DNA from: Xiphophorus maculatus
Lineage: Eukaryota; Chordata; Actinopteri; Cyprinodontiformes; Poeciliidae
Direction of reading: 5' to 3'
Assembly: GCF_002775205.1 (NCBI RefSeq)
Contig: NC_036443.1
Location: forward strand, 19,749,266 to 19,813,265
Length of the DNA stretch: 64,000 bases
Shown here: positions 1,205 to 46,515 of the stretch, piece after piece
Numbering within the stretch: the stretch's first letter is position 1
How the letters are laid out: every line of letters starts with the position of its first letter
Position numbers and translations under genes: made by a program
Notes under the pieces: model-generated
The model's database searches: none
Told to the model about the DNA's origin: nothing
The model's input: only the letters and a program-made list of their open reading frames with translations

Positions 1205-2951
1205 TCACATCATTGTTTCTACAATGGTGTGGGTGGGCTTGATCAAGCCATTGTTCCCGTTCGGGTCCAGAGGCTGTGTCAGCTCGCTGCTCTTCAAATT
1301 GTACTCTTTCGGGCGAGAGCTCACGCCTGACTTTGCCGGGGCCGCCACTGCCTTGATCCTCTGGGAGAGGGAAGGAAATGAGACATTAGGGTAATGATCA
1401 TCAGAAACAAGGGCTCCTTCAAGGCACAAAAAGACAGCTACTGAATTTGAGACGTCAAACGTTTTTGGAAATTAAAGACTTCTTAGTACAACACTGATCA
1501 GGGCATTTTAATTTTACCCAGACAACGATGGATATGTCTAAAAAGGTCTGTTTGAGATGAACATCTAACAACAGAATGTGACTTCAGGCCTATTAATATT
1601 TGATTGATTCTCTTCCAAAACCAAAGAGCCAGAGATGCAAAACATGTTGGTTAAAACACTTTAAAATGATATGCGTAACTATGATTGATTAACTATTGAA
1701 GCCAATCAATCAGTCTAGAACATCATATATTTTAATTTTTTATTTAGAATGTTTATTTATGTTTGTTATTTGATTAATGTTTATTTAGAATGTTTCAAAA
1801 AAAAAAAAAAGAAAACACAATCATTTGTTCCCTAAGATATGACTCAATTTTTTTTCCAGTTTGGTCACTTAATTCTGAATAGGGTGTGAAAATAGGTCTG
1901 TTTTTAGTTGGTAGTGATTCTCAACTCTTTCTTTCAGTCATCACAATATATAAAAGAAGTCTTAGTATTTTACTTATTTATTTCATTTGTTTGACTTTGC
2001 TTTTTGAACATTTTGGGGTTTGTGATTACTTTGGGATTCTGCCACTTACAGCTTTCCATATTTGACTCTCTGTTTAGCTTTGTTAGAACTTTTTTCTGTC
2101 TTGTTTCAAACTCTTTGTGTTAATTTCTCTAATTATTAGTCATTTCTCCACCTTCCTTTGTTCAGGTCATGTACCCAACTGCACTACATGCTACTAATTA
2201 GTTGAACCTGATTCTCTTGTCACTCAATCACCTTCCCAGCAGTTAAAAGCCAGTCAGTTTTGGTGCCTCTCTTTGCAAGATCCTTCCATTTCCTCTCCAT
2301 GCCTTTTTTTAAAACTCTTTTGTCCATGATTCCTTGTTGCCTGACTTTTATTTTCCTTCTGTGTCTAAATTGTGTACCAGTATATTTTGGATTTGTTGTG
2401 TTGCCCATTTAACATTGTTTAAGCCTATATGAGACCAACATTTTCTTGTCTGTTTGGATTCCAGTTCAAACATTTTATACCCAGATTCTGAAATGGGCTT
2501 TCCTTCCACTAAGCTTTCTATTAGTTTTCCATTGAGTTGAGGAAACTTTTAAATTTTGGAATCTGTTCAAAACCACTACAGATGGCATGTTGCTGTTCTT
2601 TGCAGATACTGTATAGGAGTTGTTTGGAAATTATTCAAGCAGACTAATGAGTGACAGCTAATCTGACAGACTCTTGTCCTATAATATCTCTCACAAAAAA
2701 GCAAATGGTTAATATCTGTTAATATAGAGTTGCATTCTATGGATGTTAATATATCACTGTGAACAGTAATTAACAGTTTTAAATTATTGAAATCAGCTAA
2801 ACTGTGGAGTGTCCAACTGATTAGCTGTTAGCCTTTCACCACCCTGGAGAATTTTCCACTTTCTACTTCTAGGTGACATCTTTCTGCATAAATTAAGAGA
2901 AATTTCAGTGCTCATAACTTCGCAAAGTATTGCTTGAAAAAAAAAAAAATA

Positions 2952-3014
<63 letters not shown>

Positions 3015-6000
3015 TATATACAGTACAGACCAAAAGTTTGGACACACCTTTTAATCCAATGAGTTTCCTTTATTTTCATGACTATTGACATTGTAGATTC
3101 ACACTGAAGGCATCAAAACTATGAATAACACATGTGGAAATATGTACTAAACAAAAAAGTGTAAAACAACTGAAAATACCCCTTATATTCTAGTTTCTTC
3201 AAAGTAGCAACCTTTTGCTGTGATTACTGCTTTGCACACACTCTGCATTTTCTTGATGAGCTTCAAGAGGTCGTCACCTGAAATGGTTTTCACTTCATAG
3301 GTGTGCCCTGTCAGGTTAATAAGTGGGATTTCTTGCCTTATAAATAGTCATGAAAATAAAGAAAACCCATTGAATTAGAAGGTGTGTCCAAACTTTTGGT
3401 CTGTACTGTATATATATACATATCTGTATATATCCTTTAATATGTCGTCAGAAGAAAAATATCAAGACAGCATGTGTTGAGTTCAGGACCTGCAATAAGT
3501 GGATCTTAAAATAATTAATCAATATTCTATGATTGGGGGAAGAATCTCCATGGAAAGCCTGAAGTCTGCTAGTGACCAAAATTAAACAGACCAATGCTTT
3601 TTCAGCGGCAACATCTGTAATGTTGTGAAAGGATAATGGCACATTGCTACATAGCATATAAACTGCCTGTTCAGGCTTGTTTATCGCCTGTTGACTCATG
3701 CTGACTGGCTACTTATAATGTGGGTTAAACATTTCAAAATTCACCATGGAAATTTCCAGTTAGGAATCAAAACATTGCTTTACATTCTAATTATTACTAT
3801 AAAATGTGCTGGGGCCAATGTTTAGAAACTGAAAATATTTTTAAATAAACTTAATAGAAGCTACAGTGATTGTCTTATGAGAAATTTAAAATGACAAATT
3901 TTTACACTATTTCTTTAAAGTGTCGCTTAGAAACTCAATCAGCTCACCTCTATGAGAGGTCCCTCTGACTGCAAGATCTTGATGACCATCACCATTGGGA
4001 TGCAGATCATAGAGGCCAAAGCCAAACACCAGCCCAGGCCAATGGCCCACTCGGGATACTCATACACCTTGTTGTAGGTCAGTGGTTTGTACTTTACAAG
4101 GGAGAAAACAAAGCAACCCTAAAAGAAAAAAAACAAAAACATGCTGCCTTAAGCAGAAGCTCTGTAGCCTGTCAACATCTGTAGATGAATCCATATGGTT
4201 CTAATAAAGTAATATTTGTCTGTCTCACCATGCAGAGGACAGGAGTGATGATGGTCCAGCTCCATTTCATCCACGGGTTTGGTCTGTAGCCAATCATGTC
4301 TTCGACTGCATCATAGAAATTATCAGCTCCTAAAAGGTGCAAAGAAAATGTAATACGCCATGAACATGCTGTATGTTTCTGCTAAATAACAAAACAGCAT
4401 CTGACATTTCTGTGCATTGTTTCTGATCACAAAGTGACCTTCATATCCGCATGCAGCGATTAGCACATTTATGGACCCTTATCTCTGCTGTTTACTATAA
4501 ACTGCAGCATAATTTTTCCACTAGGTCATGTTTTGAATATATAGGCTACAAACAGTCACTTGTCTCAAGCTTGTCTCAGGAGGTTATCAGTTATCTTTGC
4601 TGGGTGAACTTATAATGAAGTCACCTGGAATGAACTTACTGTTATTTACCAGTGAGCTAAATGTGCTTGGTTGTGTTTAAATTTTGTTTGGTAAAATTTT
4701 TATTTTTTTCATTTGTAAATTTTATTAAATTTGTGTATCTTTGCATAAGACTTACTATTAAATATCATCAAATATATAACTCTAAAATTAATAATTGAAC
4801 CCATTTTGTTAGACAAAGCAAAAAAGGTTGATGTTATCATAATGTCCAGTAAGTGAACAAATACACCAAAACACAACAATTACTTCAAAAGCATTTAAGT
4901 TAATAAAACATAGAGCACATTGCCAGTTAGGCTGATTCTTATAACTGAGGAGCATCTGAACCATAAATTAATCAGTCATTTATTTCTTTATAACTATTTG
5001 TTTGGCTCTTTGTTTATTCAATATAAATAGTCTTTTTTGTTTGTAAAAGTAAAATTAAAGCAACTTATCTTTGAATAGTAGACATTTTAAGATGTGAATT
5101 GAAATGTGATTGGTGAAGTTGGAATTTGAGTGTTCAGCCTCAGAAGTTGGAAGCAGATAACTTTGAAAAAAAGAACCATAATCTTTCCTCCAACGTTACT
5201 GGCAATTTATTTAGTTTAGCATTTGTTTGTTTAATTTGGCATTAGAAATTCTTCATATTTAAATCCCAATGGACATTTTTGTATTTTGATATTTCATGCA
5301 TTTTTTGGATATCATACAAAAGTTTTTTGTTATCATGTTCTTTGATTTATTTAATGATTTTTCTATACCTAGTGCAGAGCTTAGTGACAATGTTTGTGAA
5401 ATTTTGTTTTTGTTAACAGAGAGGAAACTCTGAGGTGCTAGCTCCAGCCTCTTTATTCTCATTTCCCCAGTCCTGCAGTTAATCTTATTTATTGCAGACA
5501 TGTAAAACTCCCTCAACCTTTGTTAGCCATTATGGAGCTCCTTCCGGGATTCTTATCCAACTCCTGTAAATCATTACATTAAATGATGCTGATACAGTCA
5601 CTTCCACTTACCATAAACCCAGGCTACAGCAATGCATTCAAAAAATGCAACCCACAAAAGGCACACACCACTGGCTGCGTAGTAGTCAAAGAGCTGAAAC
5701 ACATACATGCCACCCTGGAACAGACAAAAAGCAGCTTTAATTACCTCTTTGATATATGTAATGGGGCAAAAAGTCACACAGATAAAAAGGGATGTAAAAC
5801 CATATTGAGAGAGAAGGGAGGAGGTGGTGTTGAAAGTAGGACATGGGCACTTTGGCACCTAATCAATAGAGGGAGAGTTCAACAGGTGCTGGGATGTCAT
5901 TGAAGCCCGTAAACCAGTAAGGGGAAAACTGCCCTCCAAATTTTTCCATTCACCCATGAAGTTTGTGAATCATCAACATAGCAGGAGGCCATATTTGGCT

Positions 6001-9000
6001 GCAACGATGCAGTGAATAAGCAACGATTGAGATACACATATTCTGTACATGACAAGTTACTAAAATGAGGAACCTGAAGTTCAAGTCCGATCATAAGGCT
6101 GAAATAAAGATCGTCTCATCTAGTCTGCCAGTAGAAATACAATTTACTGTAATGTTACATTTCTGTATGAATCAAAAAGTGTGCCTTTTATTTTGTCTTA
6201 ATTACTTAACTACGATTTATTTATTATACACTCCTTCACTTTAAAAATCTTTACAAAATAATCTTCTCATAATAAATGTGAAATCTTTCTTGTAAAGTCT
6301 ATCCAGTAAACATGTTCTATTTTACATAAAATACAACACAGTGAGTGAGGGTCATAAGTGAAAGACAATTTCATGTCTGAATGAACAGAGCAGGAACTGC
6401 TTTTATTCTGATAAGCTGAAACAAACTGATAAGTTTTTTGCGGCAACACAAGTATCTTAGCAGCGAGGGAGTAAGATGTCAGGTATAAATTAAGTTTTTG
6501 TTCTGAAATGACCCTAAGTCATTTTTTACCTTGTTCAGTGTTCTGTGTGGTCAATATTATCATGCTACAGCAAACTTAAACAGATTTTTTCAGGAAATCA
6601 ATAACAGACCACAGTCTGCTTATGTCACTGAAAAATACACTGCAACTTTCCTCTACTCCTGATTACAAGAGTAAAATATTTGTGAACAAGACTCACTGCG
6701 AGTCTAAGTAAGACTTGAAAACTCAGCATGAATCTGAGTTTTGAGACCGTTCACCACAAGCTTAAGTCAAGTCTGAAGTTTTGGATTTTAGGATCACAAT
6801 GCCGTTCAACTCCAAGTCTGAAACTCGGGTCACAGTCTTTGGGATGACACTTACTTTCGTTACCATTGCGAGTCCAAGGAGATAGCTTATGAGACACATC
6901 CCTGCGATGAAGATTTCTCTGCGGTAACCTTTTCTAAGAACGGATGGATAGAGATCCACGATGGATGTGATCTGTCCTTCCACTTCAACGAACTGTTGGG
7001 ACAAAGACTGCTATGAGGTTTTCAGTAAACACACAGATTAGAGGAACAAAGCTGTTGTTGTTGAGCTGTAATGACAGTTTAAACAAACTCCCCCCTGCAA
7101 ACATGGTTTGCTACAAGCATGTCAGCAGATAAGAACAATGGATCAGTGTCTCAGACCACTTGACTGCTGATATTTCTGCTCCAATGAGTTCCAAACTACT
7201 TATTATCTAAACAAAAATTCCCAGAGGGTCTTGATGCACAGAAAAACATTATTTCGGTGTAAAATACCAAACAAAACCTTGTTTGCAACAGTGGCATTAA
7301 AACACAATACGTAGCATTCAGAACTGCAAATCTGAATGACATCCACCCACAGACAGTCACACACAAACACACACTGGCCCCAATTCTCCTATGAAAATAG
7401 CTGCACTTGCATGAGCATTTACATGTACTCAAATTTAGAGCGTCGGTCTGATCTCGCTCTTGGCTGACCATGTGTGGGACTGACTTAGTACAGGGGTAGA
7501 ATTGCACTTGGAGGCAGGAAATGTGATACAGCTTGAGAAGCCCTCGGGCATGCATTTGTGTTTTGTCAACTTGGATTATCTTGTTCTAATCAAAGCTCTG
7601 CCTTTGAATCAAATGTGGAAGATTCAGATACTTGCCTGCTTGCCATTGGGAGAAGCTTTACAAACAATATGCCTGGTGGAAAAGGTTTGTCAACTGGGCA
7701 TATATATTCAGTTTTTATGCGATCACATCAGCGCATTAAAGCTGTTTTAATCCTTCCATGGTGAAGTTAAGCAGGGCAGTAAAGTGCATTTGTTGGAGGA
7801 TCAGATATCTGAAACCTTAGCATGTTAGATATGAATCAGAGAAACACTGTATGCGATTTACACTTCGGTCCAGGATGAAACAAACTACAGGACCTCAGAG
7901 GGGCAGGCATTAAACTCTGGGCATCAAACCAGTTAACATCATTATCCTGCTTACTGTCTCAATGATTGTAAACACTCTGACCTGGCTATCGAGGCCCAGC
8001 AGCAGCAGCATGATGAAGAACAGGATGGCCCACAGGGTTGGCAGTGGCATCATGGACACAGCCTTAGGGTAGGCAATGAAGGCCAAGCCAGGACCTGGAA
8101 GGAGAACAGAGTGGGGACGGGGAGAAGGGGGCAAAGGACAGGATTAACACTTCTATCTGATTACAGGCTGGACTAATTAAATGATGATATTTCTCTCTGG
8201 AAATATGCATTTTCTTTGACCAAAAGCATAAAAAATATGGCCTCCTTCTAGAAGTATTATTAGTCAATAATTAAGCAAAAATTATATGCAAAATAAGACT
8301 GTGCTTGCAGGGGCTCTTCATGTTAAAGCGTCCCCGACATGTTAATGTACATTAGCAACACAAGTCAGTTTTGTGTTTTATTTCTTACATTCTGCATAAT
8401 TTTCAACACTGATATTATGCAACAAGTATCTAATGCATGCTTATTTTTAACCTCTTCTCATTATCTAGCACATAAGACATTTATGACTTTCTATGCAACA
8501 TTCTATGAGTCATGGTCTCTCCTTCAGGGTGACTTCACTGCTATTCAGTCTGAACATTAGTTCACCTTTATTGCATTTGACATTTGTCCTTTTCTATGCT
8601 GCATGCTGGTACTTACTGTGAGCAATGGGAATGAGAAGAATCTGATAAGGCACAACTTAAATATACCACTTCCACAGCATATTGTATTTAAACCATCAGA
8701 TACAGAGTCAGCAATTGAACCTCATTTGAACAGACAAGCAAAAAGCACATATGTTTGCTTTCATCAATAATTTTGTTCATGTGCTTTGATGTGTAGATTA
8801 CAGTGAAATCACAAAATTATTATATCATATCACTGGCAATATTTGGTTGAATCTCAAAGCCAGTGTACGTAAACAACATCAAGCATACTTTAGCACATTA
8901 CCTTTACATCTCATGTACTGTGCCTTGCAAAAGTACGTAGACAACTTGAATTCTTCACATTTTGTCTCGTTACCATCACAAACTTCAAAGTATTTTATTG

Positions 9001-12000
9001 GTAATTAATGTACAAATTAAATTGGAAGGATGCATGTTTTGTCATGAAAATGTGAGAAGGGTCAATACTTTGTGGAACTTTATGTTTTGCACGTATTGAA
9101 ACTGAAACTTTGTGAAATAACTCAAGATCAATCAGGTTGCAGGAAGAGCATCAGTGAGCATCAATTTGAGTGTGTACTGTGTTGATTCCACCAGATTGTA
9201 TTTAGGTGTATCGCACTAAAATGTACATAATAATGATGCAGGCCGCTCTTCAAGTTTGTAAAAATTTTAAAAACCATGTATCCTTTTCCTTCCACTTCAC
9301 AGTTAAGCTCTATTTTGTGTTGGTCTGTCACATAAAATACCAATAAAACATGTAAACATTCATTGTTGTAAAGCCACAAATTGTGAAAAAGTTCAAACTG
9401 TTTGGACGGTTTTGCGAGGCACTGTAGAAAATACAGGAAGACAGCAACAGATCCAGTGGCATCCACCTCAGTAGATCCAAAGCACAGTGAAAGAAATAGG
9501 TTTACGTAGCAGTGCTGCTGGTCCAAAATATCAACCTCAGGATGCAAGTTCCAATGAACAGCCATTCAGTACAGAGCCAATCTTCTTAGCAGTGTCCATT
9601 GGTCAGAAGGATATGGAGTTACTAAACTGCACAAGCAGGATTATTGTGGGACAAGCTGATGATGGCGCTCCTTATTGCAGAAGTTCATTGTGTAGCTTAA
9701 ACACAGCAATTGACCAATGCGATGTTGTTTGTCCTCAGTAAACGGGGGACGAGCCATTTTATCTTTGAGCGTTTTATTCAAGGAGTGTGCAATTGCCGAT
9801 ACCTGTACTTTCTAGCATCATTGTGTCCGAAACTGTGACAAAACACTACGGATGACTCTCTCTTTTTCTCTCTCTTAAATTCGTCAAAGAATTTTACATT
9901 TCCAATTGTCTAATTGTTTTGCTTTCGGCAGCAGTGCCCACCATCACTGCTGCCATCACACTGGACCCTCGTACCTGACTCTGCCACATCGGCAATGTCC
10001 ACCCCTTGCTCTTGTGCCATGAAGCCCAGGACGGAAAATATTGCGAAGCCAGACACAAAACTGGTACCGCTGTTGAGGCCTCCCAGCAGCAAACAGTCCC
10101 TATGTCACACATATGTCATGGAGGTTGTTAATGAACACAGGTGGAACCAAAGTTCCCATTTTCTTTTCACGCAACCGACTCTGACAGAGCGTCGCTGTCA
10201 CTATTACAGTCCTGCTCCTCCCAGCAGAAACCCAGCTCACCTGTAGCAGTTGTATCTGTACTTGTTGTAGCTTCCCAGGGACGTCATGGCACCCAGGCAT
10301 ATGGCGTAGGAGAAAAAGATCTGGGTTCCCGCATCAATCCACACCTGATGGAACAGAAGAGATGCACGTTATTAATGCGATGGGAGAGTATAATGAAGTT
10401 CTCTTGGGTATCGAGATATGATTCCTCTAGAAGATTTTAATATAGACTTGTGTGCCACGCTCTGCTCCTAAGCAGCCAATTTGGTGATTTTAAAATGCTC
10501 TTTCATAGTATCTGTTGTCTTTTTCAGAGTAAAATTTTCTATTCAGAGAAGATCTTAATTTGTCGGTGAAAATCTTAGCCATAATAAACTTAGTCTAGTG
10601 CAATTGTCAATCTGCATCAATCATTTGTGCTTCTTGAATTGCAGTTGGAGGTCACACAAAATCATTTCAAATGGCCCATCGCACACTGGATACCTATGCC
10701 TCAGAGTCAGAATTACGATTTTAGGAGTATTCTTGTTATATTTCAAGCCAGCATAATCAACAAAATGACGATGCATCTCCTGTGTCCGGTATTTAATAGA
10801 TTTATTTTTTCTGTATCTTAAAAAAAAAACAACTTTCTGATACTGTTCTCCTACAGTATAAAGTTTATCAAACCTTACACTTTTACTTTTTGCCCTCCAC
10901 TTTGGTCATTTTTAAACACGCCTGGCACAAAATAGGCAGTTGTGATTAGGTACCAAGCTTACATAAAATAGCACAGATCAAAGAAAACTTGATGAGCTTT
11001 AGAAAGCCTTGGAACTACTGATAAATGTTATTTCAAAATGATCATAAGAGATTCTGGCTCCTTTAATGGACAATCCAAAGAAAATATTTTAGCACAGTAC
11101 TGTTTGTTATTCTGTTACTTTCACTTCCTGCTTTTTTCCAGCTGGTTTTCTTATACTTGTTTATGACTTATCAAACATTTTTGTTCTACTAAGAATTTGC
11201 CCCTGCATTGTTTCTTTTCTATGCTGTTTTGTCAGAAAAATGGGTGCTGAAAACCTGTAACACATTATGAACATTGGTTTATTTGGACTTTGTTTGAAGT
11301 CTTTGCTTGTTTCTGTGTTTCTTTTCATAAGTTTCATAATCGCAGTGTAGTCAGCTGTGCCTATGTCTATGTCTATTGTGACTGCTGACAGCTAATTAAG
11401 TGGTGCATGTGCGCTGCTCTTGTTAATGCCGCCATGGGCACTGGCACTTCCCTGAATATTAAATTTCCGAGATCCAATCCACAAAAAAAAAGACAGAATT
11501 TCAACATAGAAAGTGGTTGCGCCCTCGCCAGCCTCTAGTTCAGATTGAATACAGCTGCTGTGCATAAAACACTGATCACTGCAGGAGTAAACTGTTTACA
11601 TAATCAGCACCAACTCTACTCGGGTATGATGTCATCCAATATCAGAACTTCAAAGAGGAATCAAACGGTGCATTAAACCAAGAAATGCACCAGTAAATTG
11701 TCCAGAAATCAGAATCTTCCCTTAAATAACTCTCTTCCCTTGATTAGCTATCAGAATAATTATTTTTCATTTTTTAAATACAAAAAAACTGAAAACTTCC
11801 TGCATATTGGTTGATAAACACTGATTTACAACATGCACTGTGATGCACTTTTTGAGTTTAATAAAAATCAAATGGAGCTTAGAGTTTTGATCAATAAATA
11901 TATATTTTTTTTATTTTCTATTTTTTCCTTAATTTGTCATTGTCCTTGGAAAAATAAGCTGCTGATCAAATCTGAATTGGTAGATTAGCCCTAAGAAAAG

Positions 12001-15000
12001 ATATGCGTACCTCTGAGGACAAGTCAGAGTAGAACATGTCTGATAATTTTGTTGCAATATATTTCTATTTGTTTCCAGTTTTTCTGCTAGGATGTAAGAG
12101 GGACTGTGAAAAAAAGTGTAAAATGATGTACAAATGTAAAAAAGGTTGCATTAATATCCATCTCTGATTATAATGGGATGTGTTTGGAACCTGCCTCTGG
12201 ATCCTGGAGACGAGTCAGGTCTGGGTAATGTCAAGAAAATCCGAGCTCATCCCACTTCCCCATGCTGGAGATTTTAGTTTAACAGTAATAATAAATAAAG
12301 TTATCTTTAAAATGAATCACTCAAGTGACATCAAGGCCCAACAGTAGACTTAGGTGTCAATAAAGTTAGTTTAACAGTAATAATAAATAAAGTTATCTTT
12401 AAAATGAATCACTCAAGTGATATCTAGGCCCAACAGTAGACTTAAGTGTCAATAAAATAAATCTGGTTGTGTGTGTGTTGTTTTTGTCTCATGCAAACTT
12501 TGCTTTAATTCTACTTTTTTCTATCTAATCATAAGAAATCATAGTCAGTCAGAAAGAGTCATTAAACAGGAAAAGCAGGTTTCCTGGAAAAAGAGGAAGT
12601 AAGTTCCAGCCTGCAGATTTATAAAAAATAGCTGAGACTATTCCTTATTTTAAATCATGAAAGTTTAAAGAATGAAATCTAAACATTTTTGGATAATTTG
12701 ATAAGATTCAAAGTAAAATACTTATATTAATATTGGTTTACTTGTAATAATACTTACACTTATATTTGTGGGAACACTTACAAGGAAAACAAGTAACTGT
12801 AACTTTAGTAGTAAATAATTAGAATCATGTATTATTCTTTTGGTTTCTTTTCAGAAAAACATCTGTAATAACTCACATTAGGATTATAATAAGGATAATT
12901 AATAAGTTATGGTTATAAAATCATAAATGAATGATAAATCAGAGAAGCTGAAGAAAATAAATGTGATATAAGTTATGGTTATAAAATTATAAATGAATGC
13001 TAAAATCAGAGAAGCTAAAGAAAATAAAAGTGATATAAATGTGATTTTGACATTGAACTTGAAATGGTGTAAAAGGTGTAACTGCAATTAAACATCACTG
13101 ATATGTTGGAGGTAGAGAGTAGGTGAAAGGTGAAAGGCAAGGAACTAACAGGAGAGCAGAGATGATCAACGCCTTATTTAGAGAGTAGGTGAAAGGTTGT
13201 GCAGGCAATGGACATAGGAGGTTGAGCAACTCTGAGACATTAGCACAGACATCAGGACATAATGTCTGTAAGACAGTGATGGATATGAAATCATCTGAGC
13301 AGTCAGCCAATGAAACAAGCCCAGCAACAGTGCTAGCCAAAGAAACCCTATAAAAGGTGAGTGCAAAAGAGGAACCTTTCGTTGGATCCTCCGGGCAGCT
13401 TCGAGCCAAGATCGAGATGGACAAAGAACTCTGCAGCTGAAGAAGAGCCGGGGCCACGGAGCCGAAGACTGTCCTGCTCATGCATGGGGACCAACCCGTC
13501 TGGCCCACAACCTGTGGCTTCAAATCGCACTTCTCTCATCGGCTGGGTTCAGACCCCAAAGACAAAGATGAAGACAAAGGCAAAGACAAAGAAGAAGAAC
13601 TGGTGCCTTCCTTCCTGCCAGCACCAAGTCCTGTGTGACCTCACCATCCATGCGGAGAAGAAGCTCATCAGACCTACAGAGATTCCTGCCTTCGCTGATC
13701 AACATCTTCCTCCTGCTGCAACACCTTCTTCATCATCAGACCTGCGGAGATCCTGGCCTTCATCGATCGGCGTCTTCCTCCTGCTGCAGCACCTTCTTCG
13801 TCGTCGTGCCAGGTCTGGGGTTCGAGGCGCCAGGCTCCGTCCGTCTCTCTCAAAGGTTCCTTTTTTAGTTTTCAGTGTCAGCAGTAGGGAAAGATAGACT
13901 AGATGATTGATTTTACTTATTTGATTATTTCTGCTACTGAATTAAGCTGTACTGACCCTTGCAAAAATGCCTTACTAATAAAATATTTAGCATAAAGAAA
14001 ATCTAAAAGATGTTGTGGACATTCAGTTAATGAGTCACCTTAAAGTTCTTTGATGGTTGTAAAATAGCTGTGATGTTTGATTCTGGAGAGGAAGAGGGGG
14101 AAAATGTTTTATAGGTTGCTGGTAGCCCAAATTTAAAACAACATCCTTGGGACTCGCCCGAGTCACTAAAACCTACCTGGTTCAATAACAAATGCAAGTT
14201 GTAAAATAAGAGAACGAGCGACCGTTAACAGGTGTGCTCTGTGAAACTAGTTGGCTGTAGGCTGCTCAGTCTGGCTAATTCACAGGGGGAAGAAGGGTGG
14301 GACACCTGGATGTAGGCCGTTAAAAATCAGGTGAATCGTTTCTCGAAACCAGCTTAAACAGAGTTTACTTCAGTTCTGGACAGGGTAAATCCCGGCAGAT
14401 TTAGGAAACTCAAATAACCCGTTAGATGGAGAGCTGGTAGCACATCTCCCCTCTCAGAAGAGGAAGTACGAGAGTGAGAGAGTAGAGACAGAAAGGAGGG
14501 GGGGGGTGTTGCGCAACAACAAGTGGCGCCCGAACAGGGACTCGACTAACGGAGTAGGAGGGCCCTGCCAAGTCAGTAAAAACAGATGTGAGGATCTGAA
14601 TAGCTCACTTGGTTTGTTAACTCTTAGGGAATAGAGTTAATGGTGACTGATAAGGCCATCAGTCACAACCCTCGCAGTAACTGTATAGCGTACAGGTGAG
14701 GGAAAGCTTCTACTGAGGATAAATGACCGGATCCAGACAGTGAAGCTAGTAGCCAACATAGTCTAGACCCATCCCTGCTTGAAGGCTAAAGAGAGGCTTT
14801 GGGGGATAGACAACTCGAACCGACAGAGAGACGGAGTGATGGATGATCACTTCGAGGAGGAAAATCTGGGGAAGAAACCGGAGGAAGCCGGCCGTCCAGA
14901 TCGTTTGGAAAAGGAGGAGACCTCAACAGAACTGCATCAACTTTCTGCACAGCTACCCAGGGCACCCAGGACAGCGGATGGAAGGTTTGTTCATCAAGAG

Positions 15001-18000
15001 CACAGTCCCATGGGGTTCAGTCTGCATGGATGTAGCAGAGCCAATGGGGACAACAGGAAAGAGAGGTGAGAAGTACCTCTTGGTGCTGATGGACACAGTG
15101 ACAACTGCTAGAAGAGCAGGTCTTCCCCTGCAGAGGAACTCCGTTCACGTCACAGAAAGCAGGGAGGCGAAGACACTTCTCCTTTTTGCTCAGAGGAGGA
15201 AAAGGGAAGTTGCAGCTCAAAGTGTCACTGAAAACAGGGCAGAGAGTTTGGATTAAAGCTCAAGATCGGCCTGCAACTACGGGGATCAAGCTGAGATTCA
15301 ACGCCCAAGATTTTGTAAAGTAAGTACTGAACTTCAACACAGTACTACTGATGAAGAAAGGGGTCCATGAGGAAGCAGTGCTCAAGCCAGTTCTTAGCTA
15401 CAGCGAACCAGAACATTACGAGACGATGGCCAGAGAATCAAGCACCATGCCATCCTACAGTAGACTGGCCACTATTACAGGAAGGTTGCCGTTCAAAGAA
15501 CAACTTCAAGGCTTTGGACTGGGAGGGCCGTGAAGAAATTGGATTATGCTAAAGAAGAACTCCTGTCACAACCTGATGGATTAAAATGGAAAAGGATCAT
15601 GATTACGGATAAAGCGTCATGATGCTTATGCTTTTTGCTTTGCTCTGCTGAACAGCCAGAATTTTTTTTTTTGAGGCCTTCTGTCTCAGCCCATCTTCCC
15701 TTCCCTAAAGAACCATCCCACATCCTGAAGAACTGACAGTTCATCCAGCGAAAGTTCCTGTAGAAGAATCAGAGCGATCCAAGTTTTCTTTGACATTCAT
15801 CACCTCATGGGGGAAATCAAAACTCCAAGGAGGGGGTGTCAAGAGAAGTGGAGTTTTGATGACTACACTGAGCCCTCTGTGACAACTGAGGATGAAGAAT
15901 CTGCATCTTCACATCCCAGACGAACATCTTCTCTTTCCAGGGGATGAGGACGGCGAACTGCAGGAGGGTGATGGACTCCCAGCATGTGAAAGGTCTGACC
16001 TCGTGGAGGGGGTGTCAAGAAAATCCGAGCTCATCCCACTTCCCCATGCTGGAGATTTTAGTTTAACAGTAATAATAAATAAAGTTATCTTTAAAATGAA
16101 TCACTCAAGTGACATCAAGGCCCAACAGTAGACTTAGGTGTCAATAAAGTTAGTTTAACAGTAATAATAAATAAAGTTATCTTTAAAATGAATCACTCAA
16201 GTGATATCTAGGCCCAACAGTAGACTTAAGTGTCAATAAAATAAATCTGGTTGTGTGTGTGTTGTTTTTGTCTCATGCAAACTTTGCTTTAATTCTACTT
16301 TTTTCTATCTAATCATAAGAAATCATAGTCAGTCAGAAAGAGTCATTAAACAGGAAAAGCAGGTTTCCTGGAAAAAGAGGAAGTAAGTTCCAGCCTGCAG
16401 ATTTATAAAAAATAGCTGAGACTATTCCTTATTTTAAATCATGAAAGTTTAAAGAATGAAATCTAAACATTTTTGGATAATTTGATAAGATTCAAAGTAA
16501 AATACTTATATTAATATTGGTTTACTTGTAATAATACTTACACTTATATTTGTGGGAACACTTACAAGGAAAACAAGTAACTGTAACTTTAGTAGTAAAT
16601 AATTAGAATCATGTATTATTCTTTTGGTTTCTTTTCAGAAAAACATCTGTAATAACTCACATTAGGATTATAATAAGGATAATTAATAAGTTATGGTTAT
16701 AAAATCATAAATGAATGATAAATCAGAGAAGCTGAAGAAAATAAATGTGATATAAGTTATGGTTATAAAATTATAAATGAATGCTAAAATCAGAGAAGCT
16801 AAAGAAAATAAAAGTGATATAAATGTGATTTTGACATTGAACTTGAAATGGTGTAAAAGGTGTAACTGCAATTAAACATCACTGATATGTTGGAGGTAGA
16901 GAGTAGGTGAAAGGTGAAAGGCAAGGAACTAACAGGAGAGCAGAGATGATCAACGCCTTATTTAGAGAGTAGGTGAAAGGTTGTGCAGGCAATGGACATA
17001 GGAGGTTGAGCAACTCTGAGACATTAGCACAGACATCAGGACATAATGTCTGTAAGACAGTGATGGATATGAAATCATCTGAGCAGTCAGCCAATGAAAC
17101 AAGCCCAGCAACAGTGCTAGCCAAAGAAACCCTATAAAAGGTGAGTGCAAAAGAGGAACCTTTCGTTGGATCCTCCGGGCAGCTTCGAGCCAAGATCGAG
17201 ATGGACAAAGAACTCTGCAGCTGAAGAAGAGCCGGGGCCACGGAGCCGAAGACTGTCCTGCTCATGCATGGGGACCAACCCGTCTGGCCCACAACCTGTG
17301 GCTTCAAATCGCACTTCTCTCATCGGCTGGGTTCAGACCCCAAAGACAAAGATGAAGACAAAGGCAAAGACAAAGAAGAAGAACTGGTGCCTTCCTTCCT
17401 GCCAGCACCAAGTCCTGTGTGACCTCACCATCCATGCGGAGAAGAAGCTCATCAGACCTACAGAGATTCCTGCCTTCGCTGATCAACATCTTCCTCCTGC
17501 TGCAACACCTTCTTCATCATCAGACCTGCGGAGATCCTGGCCTTCATCGATCGGCGTCTTCCTCCTGCTGCAGCACCTTCTTCGTCGTCGTGCCAGGTCT
17601 GGGGTTCGAGGCGCCAGGCTCCGTCCGTCTCTCTCAAAGGTTCCTTTTTTAGTTTTCAGTGTCAGCAGTAGGGAAAGATAGACTAGATGATTGATTTTAC
17701 TTATTTGATTATTTCTGCTACTGAATTAAGCTGTACTGACCCTTGCAAAAATGCCTTACTAATAAAATATTTAGCATAAAGAAAATCTAAAAGATGTTGT
17801 GGACATTCAGTTAATGAGTCACCTTAAAGTTCTTTGATGGTTGTAAAATAGCTGTGATGTTTGATTCTGGAGAGGAAGAGGGGGAAAATGTTTTATAGGT
17901 TGCTGGTAGCCCAAATTTAAAACAACATCCTTGGGACTCGCCCGAGTCACTAAAACCTACCTGGTTCAATAACAAATGCAAGTTGTAAAATAAGAGAACG

Positions 18001-21000
18001 AGCGACCGTTAACAGGTGTGCTCTGTGAAACTAGTTGGCTGTAGGCTGCTCAGTCTGGCTAATTCACAGGGGGAAGAAGGGTGGGACACCTGGATGTAGG
18101 CCGTTAAAAATCAGGTGAATCGTTTCTCGAAACCAGCTTAAACAGAGTTTACTTCAGTTCTGGACAGGGTAAATCCCGGCAGATTTAGGAAACTCAAATA
18201 ACCCGTTAGATGGAGAGCTGGTAGCACATCTCCCCTCTCAGAAGAGGAAGTACGAGAGTGAGAGAGTAGAGACAGAAAGGAGGGGGGGGGTGTTGCGCAA
18301 CAACAGTAAAGATAAAACTTTATGCCCTCAGCTGCTCCAGGTAGGGTCACTCCACGCACAAGCAGGATGATTAGCATCACAAACGGGAAAGTTGCTGTGA
18401 CGTACACCACCTGCACAGGACAGAGACGTTTTTTGCTGAAAAGTCTCTCCAAAAGACAGTCTGGTAAACAATTTTTAGCAAACAGGGGCATAGACCATTC
18501 AAATATCTCATTTCAAGTTCCCTGGTCCACTGTTTTACCTCTTTTTTCTTTTTTTTACCTATGCCTCTGTGCCCTGTAATTAGTTCATATGAAACTCTAC
18601 ACTTCCTCAACTGGTGTTTTGTTAAACAATTTTATGGCTGTGCAATCTATTAGAGGATTTAGAGGTGCAAACAGCTTTTAAGTTAATCATTTTCTTCCTT
18701 TCCGCCATAAATGTATTTCTTTCATCCAGACAATAAAAAAACTGGACAAATCAGTAACACACATCTGTTTACACTGCAGCCTGACTGATGAAGAAGTAGC
18801 TTTCAGGACCACCTAAGCTTTGGTGTCTGATTATCTGATTGATCTTGTTCCCCAGCATGTGGTCTTTTTCCTTTTTCTAAGCAACAGTGTTTTCTTGCTG
18901 GAAAGGGTACAAAAAACAAAGACCAAACAGCATCCAGGCAACACACTAACTACAGGATATGCGTCCACTTGCTTCAGCACTTACTTTCCCAGTGGACTTG
19001 ACCCCTTTCCAGATACAGAAGAAGCAGATAACCCACACTGCCAGGAGACACAGGGCTAAGTCCCACTTAAGGGGCCCAATGTCCTCAATGCCGGTGGAGA
19101 GACTGAGGACGTTGCGTCTGTAGAGGAAACAAGGGTGCAGGACAGGTTAGCAGCAATGCAGGAGATGTGACACAGCAGGTGTTATTTTTAATAAACACTC
19201 AAGTATGTAGGTTAGAGTTAGAGGGATATCACGAGAAGCTAATTAAAAGTAGAGGAAAGGATTTGAAACAGGCGCATGCCCTGGCCTTCCTGTGTTGTTC
19301 AGCAGCTCTAGCATAGGAAACAACGGAGTGTAAAAGCCTTTGAAGCTGAAGCTCCTATCATATTTAGAGGTGTGAGAAAGGAAATACAAAATCATATTTC
19401 ATGGTGGGAATTTAGTGTAACTTGTTGCAGCTTGTAGCTTCATTATGACAATACATGGCTGAAAACCGACAACATTGCAGAACTATGTTGTGCAAGAAAT
19501 GAGCCTGGTCAAACATGTTTACGCAACAAAGATACAGAGGCAGTATTACTTCAGTTTATTCACGTGCATGTGCATGTGTGCGTGCGTGTGTGTGCCTGCG
19601 CAAGCTGGCCACTCTGTCAGTGAATACTCACTCCCAGAACTCGGTGACTGGGGAAGTAAAGTTAGTAATATTGGCCGCCAGCCAAAGGGTCTTGTTCTTG
19701 CGGATCGTGTCCTCCACACAGTGTTCTGTGTTCCACGGCTGCTTGCATTTTGCCCAAGGAAGCTCGGGCTGAAAGCACTGAAAGAGGTAGTAGAGTCCCC
19801 AGGCCAAGATCACGATGTAGTAGATGTTCAGAAGAGAGACGATCACGATAGAAGCGTAGCCGATACCTGCAGGATTTTCAAAGAAGCATTTCCTTATTAA
19901 AAAAATCTGCTGGAAAAAATGTCACAGGATAAATCTGTGTTTTAAAGCAGCTTTTTTAGTACTTTGATATTGGCATCGAAAATGTGAAAAGTGTGAAATA
20001 AATATAGATACAGTTACTTCAGGCCATATTTCAGCGAAGATAGGAAATAATAACTTTGGTCACAAACTTCCAATGAAATAAACAACTTCAGGTTTCTCAC
20101 CATGAACCATTGACAGACTGTCATTTATCACGTGCTTTGTTGGCCATAAAATAAAGCAAATACTTAGAAAAAGGAGCATCATTCTCTAAGAAGGAGCTGT
20201 CCTTTCCAAGAAGTTACCTGCATGTCTTTTTTTTTAATCTAAAGCCAACTTCACAACTTCTGGAATGTTGCTGGAGAGCATTTATTTATAATGCTGATCC
20301 AAAGACTGAACACTTCTCTAAACAACGATCTGTGATATCAAGAGTTTGAACTCCAGCAGCTGGCTGTAATAGCTGACTAAAAACAGAGGTAAATGTCCTC
20401 AGCTTGAATGGATTTTCAACTGTAGAGTCCTTGGTGTATTTCTGTTATTTTTAGATGACTTTGCTTCAAACCTGAACACTGAACTCCCCAACCAACACCC
20501 CACCCTGTCTGTACTCATCCACCACTCTGGAGTATTTTTAAACTTATCTTCTCCGTCACCCCCACACCCACCTCGTCATTCCCGCATACCGATTTCAAAC
20601 TGATGAATAAGTCTGTGCTTTGGCAGGTGTGCCTGCACTTGACTTTGTGTAGAGGAGCTGTGGGGAAAATCCTGGATTCCCTGTGTGCTATGAACAATAA
20701 AAACAGGAAACATCTGATTGCTTGCTTCAGTCTTTCTGCATCCGTAAGACACAGTGCTGTGAAGTTTTTTTTTTTTTGTCTTTTTATGCAATGTCTCTCA
20801 TGTGGACATGACTAACTGTGTCACACCAGCTAATGGGGCGTGGTGTGCTACTGCTTCTTTACAGCTGTCCCTCAAAGTTAAAAGGGGCCCCATAAATGCA
20901 GCAAGAGGACAAACAGTGTGCACAAGGCACATGCCTGTGTGAAATTCTCACAGTGTGACATCCGTTTTAAAAATACTGCAATATACCATTTTGTGTTTGT

Positions 21001-22478
21001 GATCTTTGTAGTGAAACTCAAGTAAAACAATCTGACAGTGACTGCTTAATTAGTTGGGTTATCTTCTCATGTAGCTGACCTGCATTCAGCTGCTTAACAG
21101 GCAGGTTGCTGTTAGTTAGTGAATAGTCATTTTAAAACAGTGTTCCTTCAATTTTCACCCCTTGAAATCAAAGTCTTCTTTCAGCCAGCTGACTCAACAG
21201 CAGGTGGGAGAGGGGCTGCTGGATAAAATTGCCCTTTTCTGACATTAAAAGAAGTTTAAACCTTAGAAGCAATGTGAAACCATTACCTGTAAAATATTTG
21301 ATTTACTTTGACACAACTAACAACCACTTCAGAAAAGGGCTGCAACAAATTATTATTTTGTTATTATTAATATTATTGTTTTTAGTAATTGATTATTCTA
21401 TTCATTACTTGACAAATAATTTGATTAACAATTTCAGCTGCGTTTCAGAACATGCAGTATTTATGATTTCCCATAACTGTCTCTACTCACTGAAACTCCA
21501 TTGACTTCTTGTTCTTTTGGTTATTTAAGGATTGATCAGTCTCTCTTTGTCCTTATCTAACCCGACTGTCCATCTCTCCACCTTAATTTCACAACCAGAC
21601 AGAAAACAATGTCGTCTTGTGTCTGTTTAACACAAACACAAAGGATTGCTCAAGGATGCAAAGAGAAACAAGGCAAACTGAGCCCAGCACCGCAAAGAAG
21701 TGTTGCGATTCATTTTGCTCACAGTTCATTTCTAAGGTAACTATAAACAAGATGCTTCATGTTCAACGAACTGAATTTAAGCTATGCTTTGAACATTAAT
21801 ATGGACCAGCATGAGAAAAAGGATGAAGAACGAGCGCAAGATGAGATTATCCACATGTTATATTGTGGCCTCAAGTCAGGTAAAAGGTTGAAACTATATG
21901 GATAATGGATGTTCTGAACCAATTTTTTGAATACACGTCAGATAGCCAGCTAAAGGGACATATGCACATGACTGAGTTTTCTGTAGGTGTGGATGTGTTT
22001 GTTTGTGTATTTGGACCAACCAGTAAAGATGGGGCAGAGCTTGGCCCAGCAGGTTATCCCCCCCTCAGAGGTGTACTGACCGAGCGCCACCTCCAAGAAA
22101 AACACAGGCAGCCCACCTCCGAAAAGGAAGATGAAGTAGGGGATGAGGAATGCACCTTGGAAAAAAACAGGGGAATAATGTCAAAGTAAGCCATCTACTT
22201 CACTACTTCCGATGAAACCCTATAAAGTGCAATTTGTATCTGAACCTACCTCCACCATTTTTATAACAAAGATAAGGAAATCGCCACACGTTTCCTAATC
22301 CAACAAAGCCTCCGGCCACTGACAGGACAAAGTCGAGCTTACTGGCCCACTTCTCCCTCTGAGGAACCTTTCCTTCTGCCTCATCCTCAGGTCGGGTGCC
22401 TGGGCTCTTCCCGGGTGAAGGTTTGAGGGTGTCCTTATGGAAATCCTTTAGGCATTGGAGCTTCTCTTTTGATGCCAT
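1205..22478 (-). CDS. slc6a6: Sodium- and chloride-dependent taurine transporter, coding exon split by an LTR element
   Basis: SLC6-family 12-TM symporter that imports taurine with Na+ and Cl- at the plasma membrane. Coding exons (minus, transcript order): 22250-22478, 22021-22155, 19632-19866, 18985-19117, 18306-18410 plus 12195-12224 (one exon cut by the LTR element), 10241-10344, 9975-10099, 7982-8094, 6855-6992, 5612-5714, 4229-4329, 3948-4118, 1205-1360. They sum to 1878 nt (625 aa plus stop; human TauT is about 620) and every splice phase agrees. Recognition rests on the N terminus [16 protein letters not shown], the TM1 motif [18 protein letters not shown]-glycosylation sites in EL2 (NKT, NIT, NFT), [18 protein letters not shown] in TM6 and the C-terminal [14 protein letters not shown] 22476-22478 follows an acceptor at 22480-22481. 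The exon at 12195 ends in a GC donor. Without the insertion the gene would be intact; as read, the frame leaves the gene after codon 279 (end of TM5), runs through 55 LTR-derived codons and stops at 18138. Confidence 0.95.
2949..3010. repeat. TA microsatellite
   Basis: An almost pure (TA)n run in the last slc6a6 intron, just beside a Tc1-type MITE that itself inserts at TA. Confidence 0.9.
3021..3408. mobile_element. Tc1/mariner-type MITE (388 bp)
   Basis: Starts CAGTACAGACCAAAAG and ends with its reverse complement CTTTTGGTCTGTACTG. It is flanked by TA on both sides, as expected for Tc1/mariner. The interior matches the widespread fish Tc1-like family whose terminus reads CAGACCAAAAGTTTGGACAC. 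It has no transposase coding sequence, so it is a non-autonomous deletion derivative. It lies in the intron between the last two slc6a6 coding exons. Confidence 0.85.
8918..9424. mobile_element. Tc1-like MITE (507 bp), second family
   Basis: The left end TA-CTGTGCCTTGCAAAAG and the right end TTTTGCGAGGCACTG-TA are inverted repeats flanked by TA. The interior resembles the fish Tc1 family beginning CAGTGCCTTGC. There is no transposase frame. It is intronic in slc6a6. Confidence 0.75.
10346..12192. other. slc6a6 intron, no further feature seen
   Basis: AT-rich intronic sequence between the TM5 exon (12195-12224 part) and the TM6 exon. No coding, RNA gene or clear repeat was recognised. Confidence 0.5.
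12225..12228. repeat. Target-site duplication GTAA, left copy
   Basis: GTAA immediately before the 5' LTR. It is repeated at 18306-18309 after the 3' LTR. On the minus strand it is TTAC, the end of the Leu-Tyr codons of slc6a6. Confidence 0.85.
12229..14521 (+). repeat. 5' LTR
   Basis: 2293 bp, TGTCAAG at the start and CAACAACA at the end. U3 holds a ~92-bp tandem duplication at 12274-12460 and a ~67-bp duplication near 12903-13040. A TATAAAAG box is at 13349, and AATAAA at about 13978 is a likely poly(A) signal. This suggests U3 up to about 13375 and a long R/U5. The open frames at 13361-13897 come from a ~66-bp repeat and are not judged to be genes. Confidence 0.9.
14524..14541 (+). other. 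Primer-binding site, tRNA-Lys type
   Basis: TGGCGCCCGAACAGGGAC, 18 nt, begins 3 nt after the 5' LTR. It is the complement of the 3' end of a tRNA-Lys as used by many retroviruses. Confidence 0.9.
15000..15112 (+). pseudogene. Integrase-core-like remnant
   Basis: One frame shows the pattern PWGSV-MDV followed by [11 protein letters not shown], which resembles the start of a retroviral integrase catalytic core around its first Asp. The similarity ends soon after; the rest of the core is missing and neighbouring frames are interrupted. It cannot encode an active enzyme. Identification is from pattern only. Confidence 0.4.
15816..15860 (+). repeat. Hairpin enclosing an extra polypurine/LTR-start motif
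   Basis: A perfect 12-bp inverted repeat (ATCAAAACTCCA / TGGAGTTTTGAT) encloses GGAGGGGGTGTCAAGA, the same 16 bases that form the true 3' LTR junction at 16005-16020. Confidence 0.75.
16003..16012 (+). other. Polypurine tract
   Basis: GTGGAGGGGG directly abuts the TGTCAAG start of the 3' LTR, the position expected for the plus-strand primer. Confidence 0.8.
16013..18305 (+). repeat. 3' LTR
   Basis: Second copy of the 2293-bp LTR, offset by 3784 bp from the first. I see no difference between the copies on reading through. It is followed by the target duplication GTAA at 18306-18309, which is coding sequence of slc6a6. Confidence 0.92.
19869..22018. other. slc6a6 intron, no further feature seen
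   Basis: Intron between the second and third coding exons. It has several A/T runs but no recognised gene or mobile element. Confidence 0.5.
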
Positions 22479-38900: not shown

Positions 38901-40278
38901 TTTAGGATACTTTTATGATAATGCTTTGTAGTGAATAGCATTAGAATAACTGCAGGTCTGCAAACAATATACTTACAAAGGTGTGCTGTCCCATTTATCT
39001 CTCACATTGAGGTCCACATCCCTTTGTTCAACAAGGTACCTTAAAGAGAACCATAAGGTCTGATCTGTGAGCATATTGAGTTTACCAACAGTCCTTACCC
39101 TCCCTTTTAAGGAGGATAAGGACTCCTTTTATTTACAGGCAATAAAACAAAAGAATTTATGAAAAAAATTAATCTGAGACAAACAAAACAAAACAATAAA
39201 TGCAACAAAGTAATGTTTCTTTGCAAGGACAAAAAAAAAATCTAAGTATTTTGTTTGAAATGTCTATTTTAATTTGTACCACTACTCTGAAATTCATTTC
39301 TATAAATGTAATTTCTGTATAATTATTATTATTATCATCACTATCATCATCATTATTATTACTACTACTACAGGTAATGGTCACATCGATTATTTTTTAA
39401 TGATATGTGTTTTACAGTATGGACTAATTTTATCAGGAGACGGGTTCATTATTCAGTTGTAGGCCATTTTGTTTATTTTGTCTGGATTCTTTTAACATGG
39501 TCAAAAATAAAGTCTTTTCCAAACAACACTTGACAGTAAAGTAGTACTAAATCCATATTTAACACTTAATTTACCCATAAAGTAAAATTACATATTGAAT
39601 AAAATGGCAATATTTTAAAATGTATTTTAATAAAAATGTCTACATAAAAAAATGCATTAACAGTGACTTAGCTGTGCACGTTGTTAGTATTTATCTGATG
39701 GGTGAAAATGTCTTTCCAGTTATTTATAAAGCACCTTAAAATAACCGGAGGTCCAGAAAGTGCTGTACATACACACTATCAAAAATCGATACGTTACACA
39801 CAGTTGAAATAGACAAATTAAGATAGTTAAATTAGAGTAGAACGTGCAAAATGCTTCAGCAAATAAATGTTTTAAGACAAAAACCGAAAATGTATCTTAT
39901 AGAAAAAGGCCTGATGCTATATATCGCTGGAAAATACAGCAATAGCAATATTAAAGACTTTAATGTTAAATATTGCACACACAAACTCTGACCTACAAAC
40001 GTTAGCCTGACAAGCTGGGTCATCGGCGCTAATGTTAGCAATCTTCCGCTTCTGCTTCTGAGCAAAACATCGTTTAACAGCAGTTAACGGGACAGGACAG
40101 GGCTAATTATTATTTTCGTTTGCTTTATCGCACATCTATGCCAGGTGTCAGCCTGATGAAGCAGATGCTTGTGAAACAGTGTTTCTGCAAACCAAAACGA
40201 CGTTAACAGAGCCGCTGGTTACCTGACTCTACAAATGTCGCCCTTTCTGCAACTACTAAACAAGTCGTACACATCCAT
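35946..40278 (-). CDS. abtb1: Ankyrin repeat and BTB/POZ domain-containing protein 1
   Basis: Cytoplasmic BTB adaptor protein of the BPOZ type. Twelve coding exons (minus): 40223-40278, 38977-39039, 38823-38878, 38566-38710, 38282-38441, 38140-38185, 37875-37991, 37618-37730, 37441-37539, 37186-37353, 36621-36821, 35946-36152. They sum to 1431 nt (476 aa; human is 478) with all phases consistent and canonical GT-AG borders. Key motifs are the N terminus MDVYDLFSSCRKGDICRVR; ankyrin repeats with DKWDSTPLYYACLCGHEELV; a first BTB domain (GQHSDVNFLVHGQMFAAHRC); a second BTB domain (DICFRVEGFDFLCHKAFFCG); and the C-terminal DDIRFHIASNVQTYSAIEEA. There are no stops or frameshifts. The start codon matches the family. 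The foldback element begins 186 bp upstream of this ATG. Confidence 0.96.
39317..39372. repeat. ATT/ATC trinucleotide repeat
   Basis: Imperfect ATT, ATC and ACT trinucleotide run in the first abtb1 intron. Confidence 0.7.
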
Positions 40279-40463
40279 GGCCGCCTCGGAGTTCTCGGTC
40301 CTCTGAAATGCATTGAGACGGCCTGTCTGCCGGACAGGTGGGTGATGGTTTGGTGTGGCTGCAGGTGGAGCTCGACGGACGAACAGAAAGTTGACTGTCT
40401 CACACCTTGTTGACAAATCGCCGCTGCAGCCTCTTCGAAGCCTCTGTGTTTTCGTTAAAGGGG
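40279..40463 (-). promoter_or_regulatory. abtb1 5' UTR and remaining proximal promoter
   Basis: Comparatively GC-rich 185 bp with several CpGs (GACGGCCTGTCTGCCGGAC, CTCGACGGACG), TATA-less, between the abtb1 ATG and the foldback. It is probably the surviving core promoter and leader. Confidence 0.45.
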
Positions 40464-45746: not shown

Positions 45747-45769
45747 TGTATATAAAAACATAAAACCAC

Positions 45770-46212
45770 AGCTGCCCAAATCACGGCAGAATTAAATGTG
45801 CACCTCAACTCCCCTGTTTCCACCAAAACTGTCCGTCGGGAGCACCACAGGGTCAATATACACGGCCGGGCTGCTATAGCCAAACCTTTGGTCACTCGTG
45901 CCAATGCCAAACGTCGGTTTCAATGGTGCGAGAAACGCAAATTTTGGGCTGTGGACAATATGAAACATGTATTGTTCTCTGATGAGTCCACCTTTACTGT
46001 TTTCCCCACATCCGGGAGAGTTACAGTGTGGAGAAGCCCCAAAGAAGAGTACCACCCAGACTGTTGCATGCCCAGAGTGAAGCATGGGGGTGGCTCAGTG
46101 ATGGTTTGGGCTGCCATATCATGGCATTCCCTTGGCTCCATACTTGTGCTAGATGGGCGCGTCACTGCCAAGGACTACCGAACCATTCTGGAGGACCATG
46201 TGCATCCATGTA
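45770..46212 (+). pseudogene. Tc1-like transposase fragment
   Basis: An open frame without internal stops encodes the middle of a Tc1-type DDE transposase: [17 protein letters not shown], then KHVLFSDESTF (second catalytic Asp region), WRSPKEEYHPDCCMP and KHGGGSVMVWAAISW. The N-terminal DNA-binding part, the last catalytic residue region and both terminal repeats are missing. TA tracts bound it on both sides. It lies in the intron between exons B and C of the Ulp1-PHD gene, so it came later. Confidence 0.85.
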
Positions 46213-46515
46213 TATATACATATATATATATATATATTTAAACAGCACTTACTTTAAGGGCAAACACACCACATGAAACCACACCTTCCTGGATGGCATG
46301 TTATACTGTTTCACATTTCCACATTGACACTTTCATCCCTTTGCTTCTCATAAATGTCCTTGTTGAGAGGATAAAATGTTAAATTAACATTCTAGTTATC
46401 CAATTATGACATTTTTTATTATAATAAACAATAATTGTTCTTGTTTTTCTCACCTTGTTACTTCCAAGCACCTCTTCACATCTTTTTGGGACTCTCCAAG
46501 TGAGTTAAGGAAACC

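Follow-up and report, generated by a model that had tools for sequence, protein, structure and literature searches.

A non-autonomous LTR element in exon 5 of a taurine transporter gene of Xiphophorus maculatus: probably a young null allele

Introduction

Insertion of a long terminal repeat (LTR) retroelement into a coding exon is an ordinary, known kind of mutation. Vertebrate cases, which include insertions of endogenous retroviruses (ERVs), combine a young element, identical LTRs, a short target-site duplication (TSD) and a null allele in a coding exon. Here, we analyse such an insertion in a notable gene, slc6a6, which encodes the taurine transporter (TauT), in a stretch of 64,000 nucleotides from Xiphophorus maculatus (NC_036443.1, 19,749,266 to 19,813,265; hereafter the window, in whose coordinates all positions are given). 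The locus resembles these cases in having a young element, identical LTRs, a short TSD and, by our reading, a null allele. It differs from them in that the element is non-autonomous, that its LTRs are longer than its interior and that the gene is a taurine transporter gene. Among described SLC6A6/TauT proteins, the product reconstructed without the element is 97% identical over its full length to the TauT of Siniperca chuatsi (P0002, among the 120 relatives listed out of 7,992 matches), and its top match in the PDB is the taurine transporter 9j7m_A (1174.6 bits); unlike in these, coding exon 5 of the gene in the window is interrupted. Neither this element nor this insertion was recognised in the available parts of the literature on teleost duplicates, non-autonomous fish LTR elements, exonic retrotransposon insertions and fish endogenous retroviruses; the accessible portion of PMC4977317 holds nothing on this element, and no literature treating slc6a6a and slc6a6b together was found. 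We consider it most likely, with a probability of roughly two in three, that the insertion created a young null allele of slc6a6a that is still segregating, being heterozygous or rare.

An LTR element splits exon 5

The exons of slc6a6 were first located on the minus strand by means of a TauT peptide and then mapped with their splice sites. The gene comprises 13 coding exons in consistent phases from 22478 to 1205; exon 5 is cut in two by an inserted element, and the other 12 exons are all in frame and open. The features of the locus are as follows.

1205..22478, minus strand: slc6a6 (taurine transporter, slc6a6a clade), 13 coding exons, from the exon map with splice sites
18306..18410, minus strand: exon 5, first part (105 nt), encoding transmembrane helix (TM) 5; acceptor TGTGCAG intact
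12195..12224, minus strand: exon 5, second part (30 nt), then the GC donor (GAG/GCAGGT)
12225..12228, no strand: TSD GTAA, left copy, 4 bp
18306..18309, no strand: TSD GTAA, right copy, 4 bp
12229..18305, plus strand: inserted non-autonomous LTR element, 6,077 bp, antisense to slc6a6, delimited by its LTRs, the TSD and stretches resembling a primer-binding site (PBS) and a polypurine tract (PPT)
12229..14521, plus strand: 5' LTR, 2,293 bp, TGTCAAG...CAACA
16013..18305, plus strand: 3' LTR, 2,293 bp, identical to the 5' LTR
14524..14541, plus strand: PBS-like stretch TGGCGCCCGAACAGGGAC, starting at the third base of the interior, two bases past the 5' LTR
16003..16012, plus strand: PPT-like stretch GTGGAGGGGG, directly preceding the 3' LTR
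14840..15398, plus strand: integrase relic with a broken frame, found by tblastn, with domain limits taken from the relatives P0121 and P0124

An earlier reading of this DNA, made from the letters alone (the sequence-only reading), had placed a young LTR element within a coding exon of the taurine transporter gene, and our analysis upholds that description, down to the base in the case of the junctions: exon 5 halts at 18306 and resumes at 12224, GTAA stands on both sides of the element as a 4-bp duplication, and removal of the element together with one GTAA restores an exon of 135 nt (105 + 30 nt) with phase 0-0. With the element removed and the flanks joined, slc6a6 has an open frame of 625 aa followed by a stop codon, which, together with the 12 open exons, bears out the further claim that the rest of the gene is intact and that it was functional until recently. 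The splice donors are GT at 11 of 12 positions, the only GC being that of exon 5 (12193-12194, minus strand); splicing at the next GT, four bases on, would put exon 6 out of frame.

Aligned over 2,293 bases, the two LTRs are 100.000% identical and show neither mismatches nor gaps. They are direct repeats with TG...CA termini and, with the short TSD and the PBS-like and PPT-like stretches, both of which are called from sequence only, they give the insertion the hallmarks of an LTR retroelement. As far as the letters can tell, exact identity over 2.3 kb combined with a TSD and with these stretches in register is no chance match. The PBS-like stretch is presumably the complement of the 3' end of tRNA-Lys; no tRNA genes were found in the window. 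The position of TGGCGCCCGAACAGGGAC just inside the left LTR and of GTGGAGGGGG just inside the right LTR shows that the element is oriented along the plus strand, antisense to slc6a6. The window contains no second copy of the element detectable by blastn and no Rfam matches at gathering scores. Each LTR (12229-14521, 16013-18305) contains three tandem duplications, of about 92, 67 and 68 bp, and carries ten AATAAA on the element's own strand.

The interior holds only a broken integrase

The interior of the element measures 1,491 bp and is thus shorter than either LTR (2,293 bp). The open gag and pol genes of an autonomous element are missing: there is no open pol, and stop codons crowd all three plus-strand frames. 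None of the four open reading frames (ORFs) of the element matches a Pfam family at E up to 1, and the integrase-bearing ORF has no PDB match even at E 10. That part of the interior was recognised through its relatives. Three proteins related to the ORF at 14843-15256 were found at E up to 1, with the best match coming from Lates japonicus (59% over 63 residues), and a profile built from these three retrieved 72 proteins at E up to 1e-5; 26 of the 72 carry a species name, 24 of them from fishes and 2 from a plant (Tanacetum). A tblastn search of the window with the 72 proteins gave 48 matches at E up to 1e-3, all inside 14840-15543. The relic consists of two blocks, the first running from the last part of the zinc finger into the beginning of the catalytic core (14840-15103, with some matches extending to 15196) and the second comprising a C-terminal part (about 15135-15398, with one match to 15543). 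Most of the catalytic core is missing between them, whereas longer members of the fish integrase family in question (P0121/P0124/P0134, from Lates, Larimichthys, Fundulus, Poecilia, Zoarces and goodeids) have both the zinc finger and the core. Fish-named members match the relic at 44-77% in block 1 and 35-62% in block 2, and unnamed, more distant members at 26-35%. No relatives of P0121 were found among viral contigs. Among solved structures, those closest to the family are foamy-virus (PFV) integrases, and the source names of its kin range from K02A2.6-like to ERV-K-like; with no reverse transcriptase in the element, both are weak leads only for choosing between Retroviridae/ERV and Ty3/Gypsy.

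No further genes were recognised in the interior besides the broken integrase. The sequence-only reading had called the element complete, which is true of its ends but not of its interior, where no working protein is encoded. Because the interior holds only this relic, the element cannot move alone, and we infer that it was mobilised in trans.

Each LTR also contains a 178-aa open frame (13361-13897 and 17145-17681), part of which is a tandem duplication. Its length is unusual against shuffled sequence, being reached in 9 of 500 block shuffles of the LTR. It matches no Pfam family, and no protein search was made for it. Given the lack of a Pfam match and the tandem duplication, we set aside the idea of a captured gene and regard this frame as probably due to chance.

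Age of the insertion

With 0 differences at 2,293 LTR sites, the 95% upper limit on divergence is 3/2,293, which, at an assumed rate of 5e-9 per site per year, caps the age at about 131,000 years; across assumed rates, this limit runs from 33,000 years (2e-8) to 654,000 years (1e-9). Given identical LTRs and no decay in the remainder of the gene, the null allele is probably young.

Predicted transcripts and products

Read-through from exon 5 into the element would yield 279 native and 55 foreign residues, that is, a 334-aa product ending at a stop codon at 18140-18138. Everything past TM5 would be gone, in line with the earlier expectation that TM6-12 are lost, a numbering that we take from the SLC6 family. 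The hydrophobic stretch around TM5 covers residues 241-274 of the empty-site protein. Skipping of exon 5, another outcome raised in the sequence-only reading, would indeed keep the frame and give a protein of 580 aa, but one that lacks residues 245-289 and, with them, TM5 and the following loop. Its third suggestion, a transcript ending in the LTR, finds little support: in the sense of the gene, the element contains no AATAAA (2.1 expected from base composition), though it does contain two ATTAAA; in the element's own sense, the counts are 20 and 6. These counts are not independent, given the two identical LTRs. Two codons ahead of the point where exon 5 resumes lies an in-frame TGA; therefore, a transcript entering the resumed exon in its own frame from farther up in the element would stop there. 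Because of this TGA and the lack of a gene-sense AATAAA, exon skipping, cryptic splicing or truncation appear likelier than termination in the LTR or in-frame rescue.

The interrupted gene and its possible paralogue

In a 39-row tree (the window gene and 38 of the 120 listed relatives, picked by hand for breadth; 12 of the 36 inner branches are open), the window gene pairs with Siniperca (support 98/84), and the two form a five-row group with three further percomorphs (100/96), which then joins the a-type genes of Salmo and Esox (98/83). Percomorph b-type slc6a6 genes form a separate group, and the 6a and 6b entries of the catfish Neoarius graeffei fall one into each group. This grouping with the fish a-type TauT genes identifies the window gene as slc6a6a, and its place in one of two teleost clades makes it plausible that a paralogue could buffer the loss of this copy. 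A motif in the C-terminal tail, which was considered as a sign of paralogue identity, proved too loose (53 a-like, 27 b-like and 40 neither among the 120 listed relatives) and was not used.

Discussion

We propose that an LTR retroelement, copied by proteins that a relative would have supplied in trans, integrated recently into exon 5 of slc6a6a, in antisense orientation and through a 4-bp staggered cut. The resulting allele would be unable to yield a 12-helix transporter, given that read-through would halt past TM5 and skipping would drop TM5 with its loop, and this young null allele would be carried by some individuals rather than fixed. The physiology of taurine transport points the same way. 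According to the available part of PMC12679424, Slc6a6 knockout mice show retinal degeneration, cardiomyopathy and other defects, and the human SLC6A6 variants that cause retinopathy are biallelic and recessive. Because the human disease is recessive and knockout mice are ill, a carrier is expected to be well, and a fixed null would be costly unless a paralogue suffices. A tolerated heterozygous null thus fits the recessive disease picture better than a fixed one, again unless slc6a6b suffices.

Several points weigh against this interpretation, and they shade into the rival explanations. Its evidence base is one assembled sequence, and identical LTRs, with the young age that they imply, can also be produced by gene conversion or by assembly. 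As a young insertion would predict, the window protein departs at none of the 437 columns with at least 97% conservation among 119 relatives (the 120 listed minus P0001, a fused dolphin entry of 1,026 aa), but this control is weak, 64 of the 119 relatives likewise showing none. A working slc6a6b could, moreover, make fixation cheap. The insertion would then be fixed, the loss of slc6a6a would be no older than roughly 0.03-0.65 million years, taurine uptake would depend on slc6a6b alone, and the locus would be a natural knockout whose remaining sequence has not yet begun to decay. This scenario is the most serious rival, although we consider it unlikely. The two teleost clades, one a-like with the window gene and one b-like with other percomorphs, and the split of the Neoarius entries between them are in its favour, and the other exons would appear intact in that case too. 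However, the evidence for the clades comes from different species, no single percomorph among the tree rows having both copies, and the gene is kept at 93-97% identity in the nearest fish entries (P0002-P0010, among the 120 matches listed), which suggests a need for slc6a6a.

Persistence of useful expression, with the element spliced out or bridged or with exon 5 dispensable, we judge to be very improbable. Both splice sites of exon 5 are undamaged, skipping is in frame, and cryptic splicing into the element is quite possible, to judge from splice-site scores that derive from simple base frequencies and are rough. In exon 5 and the element together, 17 donor-like and 56 acceptor-like sites score at least as high as the second-weakest real site. 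The donor-like sites reach 6.1, and the top acceptor-like ones, at 16367 and 12583, score 10.7, more than any real slc6a6 acceptor (-1.4 to 9.3), which is a further point against a null allele; a weak new acceptor has also arisen at the 3' junction (12220, score 2.2). Yet, among the rescue routes that we enumerated, namely single introns with a GT donor, all those that keep the frame score below the weakest real donor (-0.4 for the best, compared to 0.0). Skipping deletes residues 245-289 with TM5, and GIKFYLYP, the segment ahead of the cut, is common to the 12 commonest variants of that stretch among the relatives, which hardly suggests a dispensable exon. Least probable of all is an assembly error, in which the element was misjoined into the exon or the second LTR was copied from the first. 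Two identical repeats of 2.3 kb are certainly hard to assemble, but a 4-bp duplication exactly at the TG...CA ends and an exon that continues to the base mark a real integration, the window contains 0 N, and a falsely copied LTR would change the age estimate, not the insertion. A young null allele of slc6a6a that is still segregating therefore remains our preferred explanation.

Two observations elsewhere in the window concern other sequences. A remnant of a Tc1/mariner-like transposase lies at 45756-46241 (PF01498, E 2.9e-10). An open frame of 150 aa on the minus strand (40219-40671), which ends in MDVYDLFSSCRKGDICRVR, has no Pfam match; to judge by its resemblance, it might be exon 1 of abtb1 or of another ankyrin-repeat gene.

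The insertion also marks a family of LTR elements that combines long LTRs with a near absence of coding sequence and was still moving very recently. In people, loss of the taurine transporter gene goes with early retinal dystrophy, and in mice with disease of the retina and heart, as stated in the available part of PMC12679424. If the insertion proves to be a private, heterozygous one, it would be an ordinary load mutation, albeit one that would still mislead the annotation of slc6a6. A dated, single-step null in one of the two fish TauT paralogues would offer a direct test of how far either copy can stand in for the other.

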